This document shows positions 14,551-29,054 of a DNA stretch of 48,943 nucleotides, piece by piece. Source of the stretch: Halieaceae bacterium (GTDB lineage Bacteria; Pseudomonadota; Gammaproteobacteria; Pseudomonadales; Halieaceae); the NCBI GenBank assembly GCA_902613175.1, contig CACMGJ010000015.1:1-48943 (forward strand), in the 5' to 3' direction. A program made the position numbers and the translations under genes. Position 1 is the stretch's first letter. Every line of letters starts with the position of its first letter. The notes under the pieces were generated by a model. That model was not told where the DNA came from. It did not search any database and saw nothing but the letters and a program-made list of their open reading frames with translations.

Positions 14551-16119
14551 CTAATTTCGAATATCGCTCGACCGAAATGGATATAGCGTATCTATAGGTG
14601 CATATTGGTAGTCCAGCGCATCAAGGCGCGTCGTGCCAAACCAATCGCCTGGTGCATCAACCACCATGATGGTTTTTGCATACCCCGTCTCGTCAAAGCC
14701 CCGTCGAAAGTGAACGCGGGACTTCACGACAAATACGTCATAGTCGTCGGGATTAAGACCTTCAATCCGCAGTGGCGATAGCGTTCTGATCTGGGTGTAG
14801 GTTGGAACAATGAAAAGTAGATTGTTATCCCCGAATTCAATCATTGCGATCTCGTCGTAACCCCAGCCCTCGCCAAAATATTTAACTGTTCCTTTAATGC
14901 GGACAGGCTTGCCAGCTTGCTCACCTGTGAAGCCCCCTACAGACATATCGAAGGCATCGCCTGGTTTGGCCTGAGTTGCGCTCAGTGCGGAAAGGGCACG
15001 TTCATCGCGTAACGCCGCATACATCATGTTACTGATGCCCTCATCCATCAATGCTTTGAGAAGCCACGTTGCATCCCCGGGGCGATCCGAATAGTCACCG
15101 AGAACCACAGGTGTGGCGCCTCGTTTCATTGCCTGTATCGTCTGCTTTGCAGCGGCCTTGGGCATAGGGAACGCGCCATTGGCAAAGGGTTCTCGTACGC
15201 GCCAAATGAACTCTGACATGTCGTCCGCTATCGCGTCAGCCAACTCTTGATCGTCATTAGTTATGACGTGCACCGTTGCGCCAACGTCTGGCACGTCTGA
15301 CCAGGGAAAGCCATAAAACACGCTGACGAGGGCGTCAGGCTCTCGCGCTTCCCAGCGGCGGGCTCGCTCCATGATATCCATCGACGGAGACTGTCCTGTC
15401 CATTGGAGAACACTGGCGGTAATAACGGGCGGCTTTCGTGTGGCCGTCGTCGCGTGGTAGAGACCCTTTAAACTTCGATAGAGGAACCGCGCTGAGCGCC
15501 CGCCTTGCAATGCCGCGTCGTAATGCGGGTATCGTTTGGTAACGAAGGCAGCATTGGCCCACTGCAGAAATTGCTCGTCCTCATTGCCGTGCAAGTCGAA
15601 AGAACCGGCAATGGGGATATCGGGTCCAACGATTTGCCGAATGCGCCGTGCTATCTCGGCTTCCGGTCGGGGAACGCCTCTTACGGCCATGGCGCCGTGA
15701 AGCGCAAGATACACACCGTCAACGGGCATATTGGCTTTGAGGTCATCAGTGATGGTCGTCATGAAATGCTCGAAGCTTTCTCTACTTTCCCAGCTTCGCG
15801 AGGAGCCCCCGTAAACCTCATCGGGCGAGTTAATGCCGATCACTTCAACATCGGGGTATTCGCGTGCGGCATACACAAAGCCGCCAATGAAGCCTCTTTT
15901 ACTATCAATGAGCTCCTCCCCTTTTACAAAGGGCACTCGCCACGCACGGTCTACAATTTGGGTGTCCCCCCCGGGACAGAATGTGCAGGTCTCCTGCGAG
16001 TACGCGATCACCGCTAGCTTGTGAAGCTCAGCGCTCGTCGAGGATGGAGCGTGAGTGAAAAACGTGAGCAATAAAACTGCGACTGCTTGGCGTAGGACGG
16101 CGTTGCAATGATTCGTCAT
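14551..16119 (-). CDS. Secreted MlrC-like (M81 family) metallopeptidase
   Basis: A 522-residue protein related to microcystinase C (MlrC), a zinc metalloenzyme family that cleaves small linear peptides; the real substrate here is unknown. An N-terminal hydrophobic signal (VAVLLLTFFTHAPSSTSA) suggests export. The family metal-site region is visible as YLALHGAMAV and GSFDLHGN (Asp, His), with further conserved parts FVTKRYPHYDA, VSVFYGFPWSDVPDVGATV and VVLGDYSDRPGDATW. The C-terminal third is the MlrC C-terminal domain. It lies downstream of, and on the same strand as, a sodium symporter gene (280-base gap), so uptake of the product or substrate by that symporter is a reasonable inference. It has no microcystin cluster partners. 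Confidence 0.85.
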   Translation of the reverse strand: MTNHCNAVLRQAVAVLLLTFFTHAPSSTSAELHKLAVIAYSQETCTFCPGGDTQIVDRAWRVPFVKGEELIDSKRGFIGGFVYAAREYPDVEVIGINSPDEVYGGSSRSWESRESFEHFMTTITDDLKANMPVDGVYLALHGAMAVRGVPRPEAEIARRIRQIVGPDIPIAGSFDLHGNEDEQFLQWANAAFVTKRYPHYDAALQGGRSARFLYRSLKGLYHATTATRKPPVITASVLQWTGQSPSMDIMERARRWEAREPDALVSVFYGFPWSDVPDVGATVHVITNDDQELADAIADDMSEFIWRVREPFANGAFPMPKAAAKQTIQAMKRGATPVVLGDYSDRPGDATWLLKALMDEGISNMMYAALRDERALSALSATQAKPGDAFDMSVGGFTGEQAGKPVRIKGTVKYFGEGWGYDEIAMIEFGDNNLLFIVPTYTQIRTLSPLRIEGLNPDDYDVFVVKSRVHFRRGFDETGYAKTIMVVDAPGDWFGTTRLDALDYQYAPIDTLYPFRSSDIRN

Positions 16120-17976: not shown

Positions 17977-18097
17977 ATAGCTCTCCTTTCACAAAGCTCT
18001 CGTTTCACAAATCACTATATAAAAAGCTGTTTCGACCGTGCATGCACTTGACTCGAGATGACGCCTGATGGAGGGTAGAGGCTCAGGGAGAGCCGCT

Positions 18098-18874
18098 GTG
18101 AAGCCAATGAAAACAGGGACAAAACTTGCGTTAGTGGCAGCCGTCATTGCGGCGGTGACTGCACGCTATTGGTTTTACCTGGCGGCGGAAGTTTCGCTTC
18201 CCACGGACCGGACCGGCTTCGTCATCGGATTCTTAGGTGCGGCGGCTTTGGGTGTTTACGCCTTGATTAAGCGAACGAGCTGGTTGGGTGCTATTCCAGC
18301 TGTCTTCGCAATTGTTGTCGGTGCTTTTTTACCCTTCACAGTGTCAATCAGTGCACAAATCGTCGAGCGCGATTCGGTGATTGAAGTGGGTGATGCGATG
18401 CCTCAGTTCACGTCGATCGACGGGCAACGACAGGCATTCGACTCTGCGTCACTCAATGGGCACTTGGTGCTCATAAAATTCTTCAGAGCACATTGGTGAC
18501 CCTACTGCGTCGGCGAGTTACGTCGACTGGAAGAACTGCGCGCAGAGTTTGACAAGCGCGGCGTAAAGGTCGTAACCGTGAGTGTCGATTTACCAGAGGT
18601 CATAGCGGACCGACGCCATCTTCATGGTTTGCAGGCGACCATGCTGTCTGACCAGCAACTTACCGTTACGGATAAGTTTGGACTGCGAAACAAGGGGTTT
18701 CATTCGGCGCCAGGTAGCGAGGAAGCCGAGGCCTTACCGGTGCCCGCCACGCTACTGATTGATGAGTCCGGCAAAGTCGTTTGGATAGATCTCTCCGCCG
18801 ACTACCAACGACGCTCTGACCCCTCGGTCGTCCTAGCTGCCATGGAAGCGCACTTCGATATCGCCGGTCATTAA
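18098..18874 (+). CDS. Selenoprotein: membrane-anchored AhpC/TSA-type redoxin with in-frame TGA (Sec 134)
   Basis: The frame runs through a TGA at 18497-18499 without any other stop, to TAA at 18872. Read as Sec, the active site is FFRAHW-U-P-Y-C, the expected W-C-P-x-C redox motif of AhpC/TSA thioredoxin-fold proteins with Cys replaced by Sec; the partner is Cys 137. Three hydrophobic helices (about residues 9-29, 38-56, 61-82) precede the redox domain (about 95-258), which would probably sit outside the cytoplasm. Downstream, family features continue (GELRRLEEL, VVTVSVDL, PVPATLLIDESGKVVW). GTG 18098 was chosen because AGGGAG lies seven bases upstream; ATG 18068 and ATG 18107 are alternatives. 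A hairpin after the TGA fits a SECIS. Its substrate is unknown. It is adjacent and convergent to a second selenoprotein. Confidence 0.9.
18509..18527 (+). promoter_or_regulatory. SECIS element of the first selenoprotein
   Basis: A perfect 7-bp hairpin: GTCGGCG, loop AGTTA, CGTCGAC, with one G-U pair at the fifth level. The apical loop starts 17 bases after the TGA, inside the coding frame, at a distance consistent with bacterial SECIS elements. The G at loop position 2 followed by U resembles the SelB-contacting G-U of E. coli fdhF. Confidence 0.8.
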
Positions 18875-18876
18875 CC

Positions 18877-20085
18877 TCAGCGCTTAGATCGGCGCTCCAT
18901 ACGTTTCCGATTCCAGATGAACTGCAAAAGTCTAAGCGGGTTCTTTCTTACTTTCCGCCAGACAAGCCGCTTCATGGCGGGTGTGCTGTCGTAATTACCT
19001 TCTCGCTGTCCGTGACCGGTGTGTATCGGGAGGTTTGGTACGTCTACTTCTTCAAGTTCAACACGAAGCGTCATTATGCGTGTTTGTGGCAACAAGCACG
19101 TTTCATCTGTGCACGCTTGAAAAGTCACGTGCACTGAGAGTTCTACCTCCCGCTCATCAATAGGACGACACTCGCTCACCAATGCACCTACCGGATAAAG
19201 TGGTGTGGCGAAGCGAACGGTGCCGCGCCATACATTTAGATCGATATCTAATGTTTTTAAACGCAATGGCGCCGTTGATGGCGCCTCCATCGGAAGCGTT
19301 ACCAATCCAGCAGGTCCCTCGATTTTGATTTCAGTGGCGGTCAAACCCTGAGGTACGGGCTCTCCGTAGATGTGAAGGCCCTCGGGAAGCTCAAATGTTG
19401 TGACCAGTTGCCGGACAATACCTTGCCGTAAACTCCCGTTGCCGCCATGCAGCGCCGCTGTTATTCGGATGCCATCATCACTACTTTCAGCGCGTGGTGC
19501 GGTCTCATCGATGGTGATGCGTCCAAGGGCTGCATCGATCAGCATTTCGGGGCTTTCACGCTTTTTGTACGAGTCGTGAAAGAATTTGGAGACTACGGTG
19601 CCGTTCTCATCGCAGACATAAACGCCGGGGTAGGGGATGCCGTAGAGGAAGGCGTCCTTTTTTGACAGCTGCTCGTTAAGGAGTCCGTATTGTTTGATGA
19701 CCCGGGAATCAGTATCTGACAGTAGGGTGTATTGGACTCCCTGCTTCTCTGCAAATTCAGCCAGTGTTTCCTGGTCGTCATACGACAGGGCGTACAGTTT
19801 GATGCCGGCAGCCTCAAACTTATCAAACGCGTCTCGCAACTCACCTAGCTGCGTCCAGCAAGGGGGTCACCAGACAGCTGAGCGGTAGAAAACCAGTGCG
19901 GCTTTACTCACGCCGCGATCTTCATGGAAGTTAACGATACGTCCGAAAGCATCAGGCACGGAAAAATCGGGAAGCCGATCTCCGACGGCGGGACCGGTGG
20001 GCGCATCCGCGGGGAGGCTCGCACGAACCGGGTGTCCCAACGGTGCTGGTGCATCAAATCCAAGTTCGTCGCGTTCCGCTTTCAT
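18877..20085 (-). CDS. Selenoprotein: AhpC/TSA redoxin fused to a DsbD N-terminal-like domain, in-frame TGA (Sec 73)
   Basis: Read through the TGA at 19869-19867, this is a 402-residue protein. The redoxin domain (about residues 35-185) contains VFYRSAVW-U-P-P-C, so Sec 73 and Cys 76 occupy the usual CxxC positions. It continues with YALSYDDQETLAEFAEK, TLLSDTDSRVIKQYG and the peroxiredoxin-like YPGVYVCDENGTVV. From about 190 to 350 a beta-rich domain ends with VTFQACTDETCLLPQT (Cys 325, Cys 330), strongly like the DsbD alpha domain. The ORF has no obvious signal peptide, odd for a DsbD-like domain. The C-terminal tail is very basic. A SECIS-like hairpin follows the TGA. A redox or peroxide-handling role is inferred. 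The stop is a normal TGA without a hairpin behind it. Confidence 0.9.
19835..19853 (-). promoter_or_regulatory. SECIS element of the second selenoprotein
   Basis: On the minus strand: CGCAGCT, loop AGGTG, AGTTGCG, a perfect 7-bp stem with a G-U pair at the fifth level. The loop begins 21 bases after the TGA. Its AGGU start is identical to the start of the E. coli fdhF SECIS loop as I recall it. The architecture matches the first selenoprotein's hairpin, though the stem bases differ with compensating changes. Confidence 0.8.
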
Positions 20086-25643: not shown

Positions 25644-25737
25644 TGGCGGAAGAGGTAGGAGTCGAACCCACCAGGCGCTTTGTCAGCACCTCACTGGTTT
25701 TGAAGACCAGGCACCCCACCGGGGACGTCGCTCTTCC
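25644..25737 (-). tRNA. selC: tRNA-Sec (anticodon TCA)
   Basis: A 94-base selenocysteine tRNA with encoded GCCA. On the minus strand: GGAAGAG acceptor arm pairing with CTCTTCC, a 6-bp D-stem CGTCCC/GGGGTG, anticodon stem CTGGT/ACCAG with loop CTTCAAA (TCA reads UGA), a long 7-bp variable arm AGGTGCT/AGCGCCT, and T-stem GTGGG/CCTAC around TTCGACT. It differs from E. coli selC in that the acceptor and T stems appear to total 12 rather than 13 base pairs. It starts six bases after the selB stop, so selA-selB-selC are probably one transcript. Confidence 0.95.
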
Positions 25738-25743
25738 ATCGTT

Positions 25744-27657
25744 TTATAGCTTGAGTCGGCTGCGGATCGCCTTCGGATTAGCGATTGTACGCTCATTACC
25801 CTGTCGCTGCGTGAAGTTAATACTGTCGAAGAACTCGAGGATTTCAATGGCTAGCTTCCGGCCGACGCCAAGCTCATCTTTAAAGTTGGCCACGGTAAAG
25901 TTCTGCTCCGCGGCGAGCGACTCTGTCGTCTCTGCAAAGTCCAATAGAGTAGTGGTCAGCGCGTATCGCGTGGCGTTGATGCGATGTAGAAAACCTCTGT
26001 CAGCGCCGTGCTTTAATGCCAACTTGAGAGAGGTTCCGTCGAGGCGTGCGTCGCGCTGCAGTTCCGATATCACAGGAATGTGGAGTCCTGCTGTCTGTAA
26101 TTGACGCTCTAAACTTGACCAATGTCGCTCATTGCCATCGGGCTTGTTGCGATCCTTGGCATCATGTACCCGTCCATCCGTCACCCCAAGCACGCCAGTT
26201 TTTATAAGGGTTGTCAGCGTTGCCTCGAGCAATGCGCTATCAGAGGCTCTGCCGGCTAGCTTAATGAGCTTTTCCCGTGGGGTGCCTCTGGTATCACTCC
26301 CTTTTGCCTTGGCATCGCTCAACGCGTTGAGCAGCGTCTGCCTTGCATCGGCAATTGCACTTCGAGTCGTGATCCATGTGCTCTGGTTTAGGTCAAACTT
26401 CACAGCTGTGTCCGTAAGCGAGGGGAGAGCCGCACCCACTTTTAAGTTGAAAACACGGACAATATCTGACCAGTTAGTGGTCACGTTATGCGCCAAAAGA
26501 TGTTGAAGGGCAGTGTCTACACTGCCCGTGGCAAGTGCACTAAGCCATGTCAGTCGCCCGGGTTTTGCTTTTCCGTATTGCGGACCGTTGGGGTCTAAAA
26601 TCACACCGCCGCCAAGATGAAACGATTCGGAATCATCTCTGAGCACGAATCGCTCCCCTGAGTAAGCGCTGATTGGCGCATCGAGGATGAGCTGGGCCAT
26701 TGATGTTTGACCGGGAGCCAGGGATGAGATCGAGTTCTCAATAAGGGCTACTTTCGCGCTCGCCCGCCGTGCCCCGATGTATAGTTTGACGGGTAATAGA
26801 TGCTTTAGCGCAGTCGGCGCATCGGATAAGAGTGTTAATTGCACATCAAGCCGTTGCGAGAGCTGATCGAGAGCACGCTCAACAAGGCAATCACCTCGAT
26901 CGATATCGCTGAGCTCAACTTTACCAGCCAAACATAGCGCGACACGCTGACCTGCGGCTGCCGATTTGGCCACTGCATCATTGGCGCGCAGTTCGCGCAC
27001 TCGTACTTCCAGACCTTTGGGTTGAAGGATTAAATGATCGCCAACATTGACGGTGCCCGTGCTTGCGGTCCCTGTAACAACTATACCTGCCCCACTGATA
27101 TGAAAACGGCGATCAATCGAGAGTCTGAAGCCGCACTCCAGCGCTTGATCTCTACCTTTCGGTTGCAGCGATTGAAGATGGGATTTAAGTGGAGCGATGC
27201 CGTCATCCGTGACCGAGGAAACCTGAAATACCTTAACGTCGCTTTCGCAGCGAGCATCTATGAGCTCGCGTGCTTTTTTCGTTACTTCCCTGACCCGCTT
27301 AGACGTGACTGCATCAATCTTTGTGATCACAAGATCAATATCAGTAATCCCGAGAACATTCAGGACATTTAAGTGCTCGCTCGTTTGTGGCATCGGCCCA
27401 TCATCGGCAGCGATAATCACCAGGGCGCGATCGATGCCCGAGACCCCAGAAATCATGGTGTTGATAAAACGATGATGACCGGGCACGTCGATAAAACCGA
27501 TGATTCGGCCGTCGATCGAGGGAAGGTAGGCGTATCCCAAGTTAATGGTCAGTCCGCGCGCTTTCTCTTCAGCGAGCGTGTCGGTATCGACACCAGTGAG
27601 GGCCTTGATTAACGACGTCTTGCCGTGATCAACGTGACCTGCGGTTGCTATGATCAC
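25744..27657 (-). CDS. selB: Selenocysteine-specific elongation factor SelB
   Basis: A 637-residue GTPase that delivers Sec-tRNA-Sec to UGA codons followed by a SECIS hairpin. The GTP-binding motifs are GHVDHGKT (G1), DVPGHHRF (G3) and TKID (G4), and the opening AGHVDHGKTSLIKALTGVDT is typical of SelB. Two EF-Tu-like barrels follow, then a long C-terminal winged-helix region (about residues 370-637) that recognises the SECIS. The length slightly exceeds E. coli SelB (614). It begins with GTG 27657, whose bases overlap the selA stop as GTGA, so translation is coupled. It is required for expression of both selenoproteins in this window. Confidence 0.96.
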   Translation of the reverse strand: MIIATAGHVDHGKTSLIKALTGVDTDTLAEEKARGLTINLGYAYLPSIDGRIIGFIDVPGHHRFINTMISGVSGIDRALVIIAADDGPMPQTSEHLNVLNVLGITDIDLVITKIDAVTSKRVREVTKKARELIDARCESDVKVFQVSSVTDDGIAPLKSHLQSLQPKGRDQALECGFRLSIDRRFHISGAGIVVTGTASTGTVNVGDHLILQPKGLEVRVRELRANDAVAKSAAAGQRVALCLAGKVELSDIDRGDCLVERALDQLSQRLDVQLTLLSDAPTALKHLLPVKLYIGARRASAKVALIENSISSLAPGQTSMAQLILDAPISAYSGERFVLRDDSESFHLGGGVILDPNGPQYGKAKPGRLTWLSALATGSVDTALQHLLAHNVTTNWSDIVRVFNLKVGAALPSLTDTAVKFDLNQSTWITTRSAIADARQTLLNALSDAKAKGSDTRGTPREKLIKLAGRASDSALLEATLTTLIKTGVLGVTDGRVHDAKDRNKPDGNERHWSSLERQLQTAGLHIPVISELQRDARLDGTSLKLALKHGADRGFLHRINATRYALTTTLLDFAETTESLAAEQNFTVANFKDELGVGRKLAIEILEFFDSINFTQRQGNERTIANPKAIRSRLKL

Positions 27658-29054
27658 TGAGTCAGCTCGGAGAGTTGCTCTATGAACGCGTCTTCGTGAA
27701 TCGCTTCAAGACAACGAAGGTCCAATAGCAGCACGCCATTATGGAGCCGCCCGATAACGGGCTTGGGAAGCCGACGTAAATGCGCAGCCAGTTCGCGCAA
27801 GGGCTCATCCTCACCATTGGCTGCGGTGATGGAAAGTGCGGCACTGGGGAGCACTTCAATGGGTAGCGCGCCGCTGCCAATTTGGCTGGAGACTGATGCT
27901 GTGTCGACCCGGTATTGATCACCCAGAAGTGAGCTAACTTTTGGAGCGAGCTTGTTGACCTGATCACGAACACTGTCTTCTGCTCGCGTGAGTAATCTGA
28001 GTGTGGGAAGCCTTGAGACGAGCTCGTCCGGATTGCGGTACAGCTGCAGGGTTGCCTCGAGCGCTGCTAAGGTCACTTTATCTAGTCGCAATGCACGCTT
28101 CAGCGGGTTCTGCTTGATACGCGCGATAAGATCGGCGCGGCCCGCAATAATACCCGCCTGAGGCCCGCCAAGTAATTTATCGCCACTGAAAAGGACCAAA
28201 TCGGCCCCGTCAGCGAGGGTTTGCTGCACTGTGGCTTCGTGAGGTAAGCCGAGCGACTTCAAATCGATGAGATTGCCACAGCCCATATCAACGACGAACG
28301 GTATTCGGTTTGCTTGAGCAAGCGTCGCAAGCTCGGATTCAGGCACCGTATTGGTAAAGCCCTCGATGCGATAGTTACTCGTATGCACGCGCATCAATAG
28401 CGCAGTGTCAGTATCAATGGCGTTCGCGTAGTCCTTAAGGTGCGTTCGATTGGTCGTACCGACCTCATCGAGGCTACAGCCCGAACGTTCCATGATGTCG
28501 GGTACACGAAACGAGCCACCTATCTCGACGAGTTCACCGCGAGAAACAGGCACCTTTTTGCCAAGCGCCAAGGTGTTCAGGGTTAGCAGGACAGCAGCGG
28601 CGTTATTGTTGACCACCGTCGCAGCTTCCGCTCCCGTGAGCTCACAAATCAACGACTCGATATGGCTATCCCGATCCCCTCGTTGACCCTTGTCTAGATC
28701 GAATTCGAGATTGTTGGCACCGCCGGCTACGCGACACATGGCATCGATAGCGGCGTCCGCGAGGTTGGCGCGCCCGAGATTACTGTGAAGAACAATGCCC
28801 GTAAGGTTGAAGACCGGTTTTAAGGCCGGTTGAGACGCGATAGTGAGCCTCTCGCGAATTGTTTGCTGAATGATTGAGAGATCCGATGTCATCGATTCAC
28901 CTGATTGGATCGCGGCTCTCAGTTCCTCAAGGTGCGCGCGCGTAGCGCTTGTCACCGCATCATGGCCCCACAGTGCGACCTCCGACTGCATATGGTCGAG
29001 AATGACACTGACGGAGGGAAGGTCTCTCAGCTGTTGTTGTCCGTTTTTATTCAC
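27654..29054 (-). CDS. selA: Selenocysteine synthase SelA (L-seryl-tRNA(Sec) selenium transferase)
   Basis: A 466-residue PLP enzyme that converts Ser-tRNA-Sec to Sec-tRNA-Sec with selenophosphate. The length fits SelA (about 463 in E. coli). The PLP-bearing Lys is in SGDKLLGGPQAGIIAG, and other family features are FNLTGIVLHSNLGRA, VNNNAAAVLLTLNTLA, and RVHTSNYRIEGFT. The start is GTG 29054, without a strong ribosome binding site, preceded by a small hairpin. It heads the selA-selB-selC operon. No selD is near, so selenophosphate supply depends on a gene elsewhere. Confidence 0.97.
   Translation of the reverse strand: MNKNGQQQLRDLPSVSVILDHMQSEVALWGHDAVTSATRAHLEELRAAIQSGESMTSDLSIIQQTIRERLTIASQPALKPVFNLTGIVLHSNLGRANLADAAIDAMCRVAGGANNLEFDLDKGQRGDRDSHIESLICELTGAEAATVVNNNAAAVLLTLNTLALGKKVPVSRGELVEIGGSFRVPDIMERSGCSLDEVGTTNRTHLKDYANAIDTDTALLMRVHTSNYRIEGFTNTVPESELATLAQANRIPFVVDMGCGNLIDLKSLGLPHEATVQQTLADGADLVLFSGDKLLGGPQAGIIAGRADLIARIKQNPLKRALRLDKVTLAALEATLQLYRNPDELVSRLPTLRLLTRAEDSVRDQVNKLAPKVSSLLGDQYRVDTASVSSQIGSGALPIEVLPSAALSITAANGEDEPLRELAAHLRRLPKPVIGRLHNGVLLLDLRCLEAIHEDAFIEQLSELTQ

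Follow-up and report, generated by a model that had tools for sequence, protein, structure and literature searches.

Peroxiredoxin (Prx)-like selenoproteins, in which an AhpC-TSA domain (PF00578) carries selenocysteine (Sec) as the first residue of a UxxC pair, have been listed since at least 2008 (PMC2398784, as Prx-like 1; also PMC9312934 and PMC13188914), and the fusions named for them comprise a PP2C-type phosphatase, a Secretin_N-like domain and unknown domains. The N-terminal domain of DsbD (nDsbD) passes electrons to redoxin-like partners, CcmG and the PilB N-terminal domain, by disulfide exchange (PMC3884852, PMC6210582). The transient complex of a redoxin with nDsbD has so far been studied with separate proteins; the protein described here has both in one chain. 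It is encoded on the minus strand, at 18877..20085, of a 48,943-nucleotide stretch from a marine Halieaceae bacterium (contig CACMGJ010000015.1, assembly GCA_902613175.1), hereafter the window, a term that denotes the whole stretch and not the feature under study. The fusion is real; the UxxC kind of its redoxin is known, while the joining to DsbD_N appears to be new, and the proposed mechanism discussed below is plausible. No description of the Sec-redoxin/DsbD_N layout was found in the literature, subscription papers and supplements being outside the search.

The frame runs from an ATG at 20085 to a TGA stop at 18879-18877, contains a single internal TGA and gives 402 residues by read-through, the product to which residue numbers refer. 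The internal TGA (19867..19869, minus strand, as for all parts of the gene) is codon 73 and lies in the context FYRSAVW-U-P-P-C, where Sec73 and Cys76 (19858..19860) form a UPPC motif. The AhpC-TSA/redoxin domain (residues 34-165, 19591..19986) precedes the DsbD_N domain (residues 225-339, 19069..19413), whose C-x4-C pair consists of Cys325 (19111..19113) and Cys330 (19096..19098); a first-pass annotation of the sequence had placed the TGA and both Cys residues correctly. The N-terminal extension (residues 1-32, 19990..20085) has an ERDxxGFDAPAPxGHP-like motif and no strongly hydrophobic stretch, and the basic C-terminal tail (residues 361-402, 18880..19005; 15 Lys and Arg versus 3 Asp and Glu) forms two helices in the predicted model.

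Judged from the sequence, TGA at codon 73 encodes Sec and the frame is not due to chance, since five lines of evidence agree: nearby sel genes, conservation of the TGA, a downstream hairpin, codon constraint, and a low ratio of non-synonymous to synonymous substitution (dN/dS) past the TGA. A scan for relatives that took a single genome from each species gave 30 loci, two of which (L045 and L050) do not span the Sec codon; TGA is present in 28/28 of the others. Whole-genome searches found it in all 13 strong matches of the same genus, the window's included (two partial, one also with a TAG; these matches overlap the 30-locus set), in 23/23 two-domain matches from L037's phylum (235 genomes, 21 of them with such a match), and in 5/5 two-domain matches among 82 genomes of L049's phylum. 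In alignment A1, containing 25 of the 30 loci in addition to the window (L024, L045 and L046, which are incomplete, L038, whose frame is broken by a downstream TAG, and L050, which has no redoxin, are omitted), Cys76 is invariant and Cys325 and Cys330 are so in 26/26 members. Of eight segment comparisons past the TGA, one is saturated and the other seven give a dN/dS of 0.03-0.32, the value of 0.32 resting on 5 synonymous and 5 non-synonymous differences. The annotated selenoprotein status thus finds support in the 28/28 TGA codons, in the low dN/dS and in the selA, selB and tRNA-Sec genes of the window. As a separate observation, synonymous difference between the window gene and L002 is about 0.40 in codons 74-190 and 0.03 in codons 191-402, a drop that suggests intragenic recombination between close relatives.

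A hairpin resembling a selenocysteine insertion sequence (SECIS), with a 7-bp stem and an AGGTG loop starting 20 nt after the UGA, is located at 19835..19853 (minus strand), or at positions 17-35 if the U of UGA is numbered 1. It fits the rules for bacterial SECIS elements in PMC13188914 (loop of 3-9 nt, stem of 4-16 bp, G in the first two loop positions, spacing of 16-37 nt, minimum free energy, MFE, at most -7.5). In a set of 44 sequences, collected with a pattern that demands TGA, so that its presence in 44/44 is not evidence for the TGA, G[G/U] occupies loop positions 2-3 in 44/44 and at least 6 of the 7 pairs form in 42/44; the hairpin alone reaches -7.5 kcal/mol or lower in 32/44 (-9.0 kcal/mol in the window), and the 54-nt MFE is at most -7.5 in 42/44. 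Stem pairing is 94.8% versus 24-44% for slid partners; ten alignment cells have both partners changed, and 0/500 shuffles reach the observed cells, pairing or covariation score. A smaller test with 31 sequences (A2) is weaker, with 19/500 shuffles reaching the covariation score. Codons 74-86 are conserved past the amino-acid need (Glu82 as GAG in 44/44, Thr78 as ACG in 39/40, Leu80 as CTA or CTC in 44/44), with a mean z of 7.33 (n=12) versus 1.45 (n=120; Mann-Whitney p 7e-4), a test weakened by its top single column, Ser178, lying outside the SECIS region; both the hairpin and the codon statistics include kinship among the sequences.

The Sec machinery is encoded on the same strand as the fusion gene, about 5.6 kb off: selC, for a tRNA-Sec with anticodon TCA (25645..25738), selB, for the Sec-specific elongation factor (25744..27657), and selA, for Sec synthase (27654..29054). 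No selD was found over the cut-off in the window's own draft genome, which is 58.6% complete; it passed the cut-off in 12 of the 14 further fusion carriers tested, G001 and G387 being the exceptions. Within the genus, tRNA-Sec is present in 12/13 fusion-bearing versus 9/44 fusion-free genomes (Fisher p 4.4e-6, with G020, which has a 39-residue tail match alone, counted as fusion-free; p 2.5e-5 if counted as fusion-bearing). More widely, a tRNA-Sec match above 64 bits, a bar chosen for this analysis, occurs in 23 of the 28 fusion-bearing genomes searched, a set that excludes the genomes of L032 and L046. Four genomes of the window's genus (G053, G010, G040 and G025) have selD and no tRNA-Sec in the search made there, where selD perhaps has a role in selenouridine.

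The first-pass annotation had also proposed a redoxin and a DsbD N-terminal-like domain in one chain, and the Pfam search that it suggested bears this out: AhpC-TSA matches with E 2.7e-29, the Redoxin model with E 5.6e-16, and DsbD_N (PF11412) with E 1.8e-7 and 31.6 bits, over its cut-off of 25; close homologues are likewise fused. The NCBIfam scan of the fusion protein gave no model over its cut-off. The second domain combines the profile match, an Ig-like fold in the predicted structure and the Cys pair that characterize DsbD_N, and the fold search with its model has, among the top rows, nDsbD entries with clients and the complex of the C-terminal domain of DsbD (cDsbD) with nDsbD (1vrs). 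By sequence, no PDB chain matched the profile of this domain at E up to 1. The first domain belongs to the peroxiredoxins by AhpC-TSA sequence and by predicted fold, with 50 peroxiredoxin-type entries among the structures listed for the full-length model, and with its UxxC pair it corresponds to the Prx-like thiol:disulfide oxidoreductase selenoproteins. Aligned to 2cx3, the chain has Sec73 in place of the Ser/Thr, Ser69 in place of the Pro, and Cys76 at the following Cys, the peroxidatic one of 2cx3. The PxxxTxxC/U motif, given in PMC13188914 as the peroxiredoxin catalytic motif, is absent from the fusion redoxin in this alignment. The 402-residue chain has no match to the DsbD membrane domain at E up to 1 and no C-terminal thioredoxin (Trx) domain, the weak Thioredoxin match (E 0.15) landing on the redoxin; a separate DsbD-like protein of 577 residues is encoded on contig C4 of the window's genome (G000).

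Compared with described systems, the protein shares with the Prx-like UxxC selenoproteins the AhpC-TSA domain and the position of Sec, while the DsbD_N fusion is its own feature. Prx-like 3/Unknown_3, one of the fusions already described and compared by its description only, has three conserved Cys including a CxxC, whereas the pair here is C-x4-C. DsbD and ScsB have in common with the fusion the Ig-fold domain with a Cys pair, and the C-x4-C spacing is also found in 10/10 DsbD-like frames listed; however, this domain is N-terminal in DsbD and ScsB and comes after the redoxin in the fusion, which lacks the membrane and the C-terminal Trx domains and, in the window's lineage, an export signal. 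The nDsbD-CcmG and nDsbD-PilB pairs similarly involve nDsbD acting on a redoxin or Trx-like partner, but as separate periplasmic Cys proteins, whereas the fusion is one chain with Sec. TsoB, listed as rhodanese/DsbD fusion-like in PMC13188914, resembles it by name, as a selenoprotein with a DsbD-like part, but has a rhodanese partner, a UxxxxU motif and two Sec residues.

The window protein has no signal peptide, as originally noted, and a hidden upstream one is argued against by the open frame of 415 codons, which leaves at most 13 codons 5′ of the ATG, and by the shared N-terminus of the relatives, which starts at the same Met. Indeed, gammaproteobacterial and Myxococcota members have in common a basic C-terminal tail and an N-terminal motif that begins at the first Met, and no signal peptide was seen in them. 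In 5/5 Calditrichota members the N-terminus is, by eye, signal-peptide-like, and the protein ends shortly past DsbD_N; the hydrophobicity scan began 72 codons before Sec, and part of L085's N-terminus was lost. The fusion is conserved across phyla, as far as sequence comparison tells. In a tree of 43 rows with a midpoint root, Calditrichota form one fully supported side, and the gammaproteobacterial rows make up two clades that belong, together with L034 and L105, to a fork of 19 rows (95/90); this fork is nested among Myxococcota-type rows, which makes horizontal transfer of the fusion gene likely, in one direction or the other.

No Cys form of the fusion was found in the four groups sampled, by searches that score the best first-look candidates within E limits and could miss remote fusions: none without TGA among the two-domain matches in 235 genomes of L037's phylum (E up to 1e-30), none in 82 genomes of L049's phylum (1e-20), none in 240 genomes of L050's phylum (1e-22; 14 matches in 13 genomes, all to the redoxin part), and none in 274 genomes of the window's class (1e-20), where 27 genomes have a match and the window's own is the only one with both domains. 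Acidobacteriota and other phyla lie outside this sampling; similar, unconfirmed Cys fusions in Acidobacteriota, if real, would limit the Sec-only state to this subfamily. Three partial matches in L037's phylum consist of residues 1-218 with TGA (G579 C190), a redoxin only, with TGA (G382 C3), and the second domain without the first, at the end of a contig and with no stop (G642). None of 86 plasmid records covers 80% of the query, and 17 pattern matches in viral contigs include no relative. Genome G388 carries three fusion copies (C201, C227 and C100, the last being L144), with one TGA each.

The UGA recoding, the two domains, the four invariant redox residues and the cross-phylum fusion are supported by sequence and model evidence, and the account that we favor, with moderate confidence, is that the Sec-redoxin (UPPC) and the Ig-fold DsbD_N with its C-x4-C pair work as an internal relay. 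Sec73 would attack an oxidized substrate, either a disulfide or a peroxide, Cys76 would resolve the intermediate to a selenenylsulfide, and Cys325/Cys330 would exchange with it, as nDsbD does with CcmG and the Trx-like domain of PilB, the analogues that make an intramolecular electron relay plausible. The fusion would probably serve for disulfide or peroxide reduction. In the window's lineage the reaction would be cytoplasmic, and thioredoxin, glutathione or another soluble donor would supply the electrons; the Calditrichota proteins would act outside the cytoplasm, where a membrane DsbD may be the electron source. A bolder version, given somewhat less than an even chance, is that of a self-contained cytoplasmic Sec reductase with its own nDsbD as built-in reductant, a formerly periplasmic relay module retained nearly exclusively by Sec users, with Sec, not Cys, in every copy seen here. 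With Sec at its reactive site, the fusion would be a naturally occurring covalent model for electron transfer between nDsbD and a redoxin, would help to test why some redox sites retain Sec where a Cys version is unseen, and raises the question of how a DsbD-type module could function in the cytoplasm.

Electrons could also flow the other way, from the Sec-redoxin to the DsbD_N pair and on to clients, which would make the protein a soluble mini-DsbD that has no membrane part. The analogy is with the C-terminal Trx domain of DsbD, which feeds nDsbD in the order cDsbD, nDsbD, client (PMC3884852), and 1vrs and the nDsbD-client entries among the top structure rows agree with it; this direction is nevertheless unlikely, as Sec would be most useful where the substrate is poorly reactive, and no conserved neighbor hints at a client. 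It is also rather doubtful that the two sites are independent, with DsbD_N for partner binding or stability and Sec73/Cys76 acting on their own with thioredoxin in the manner of other UxxC Prx-like redoxins: these are a listed category (PMC2398784, PMC13188914), and related redoxins free of DsbD_N exist (L141 and L112), but Cys325 and Cys330, invariant as they are in 26/26 sequences, would be needless in a pure binding domain, and the known nDsbD partners are redoxin-like proteins. Finally, were the TGA a true stop, the locus would hold two genes or a pseudogene; a 72-codon open reading frame does end at the TGA and a second one starts with TTG at 19839, so that a gene finder treating UGA purely as a stop would report two split genes. 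This is highly improbable, as the frame, the TGA and both halves are kept across phyla, with the SECIS-like hairpin, purifying selection past the TGA and Sec machinery nearby, and the close homologues are fused, not separate genes with a true stop.

Some observations weigh against the Sec-redoxin/DsbD_N relay. The nDsbD domain is known from the periplasm, whereas the window protein has no export signal, and the DsbD_N profile compared with the N-terminus of the genome's own DsbD gives an hhalign probability of 42 (E 2.6e-4). As to recoding, the stem pairs with changes on both sides are two, a number equalled by 185/500 shuffles; the window's own 54 nt fold best in another way (z -0.70, with 47/200 shuffles as good); and no tRNA-Sec above 64 bits was found in five of the 28 fusion-bearing genomes (G370, G376, G384, G391 and G392), all of them metagenome-assembled.

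Redoxins related to that of the fusion occur alone further away, as predicted from their frames. L141 (G382 C3 152700-154600) is a stand-alone Sec-redoxin (FYRSADWUPYC) that begins with a signal-peptide-like segment and lacks DsbD_N, and its genome encodes the fusion as well; L112 is a stand-alone Cys-form redoxin whose frame also contains a TAG. Convergent to the fusion gene, at 18068..18874 on the plus strand, lies a redoxin frame with its own in-frame TGA (HWUPYC, residue 144) and, by eye, a hydrophobic N-terminal region, which is a candidate second selenoprotein. Frames resembling it, with one TGA, are present in seven fusion-free genomes of the genus (G008, G028, G031, G034, G047, G048 and G056), and the hairpin model of the fusion scores only 6.1 bits (E 4.6) after the neighbor's UGA. 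In HTCC2080 (L026 577-8135), a single stretch contains the fusion and its convergent Sec-redoxin neighbor together with selA, selB and a SnoaL-like gene, and in G016, apparently the HTCC2080 genome given the equal coordinates, some 2 kb separate tRNA-Sec from the fusion; the window has other genes between its sel genes and the fusion. An operon-based function was considered and set aside, the compared neighbors being common mainly within the window's genus or near relatives. The window also encodes, at 14554-16119 on the minus strand, an M81 metallopeptidase/MlrC-like protein, of a family whose members are presumably microcystin degraders.
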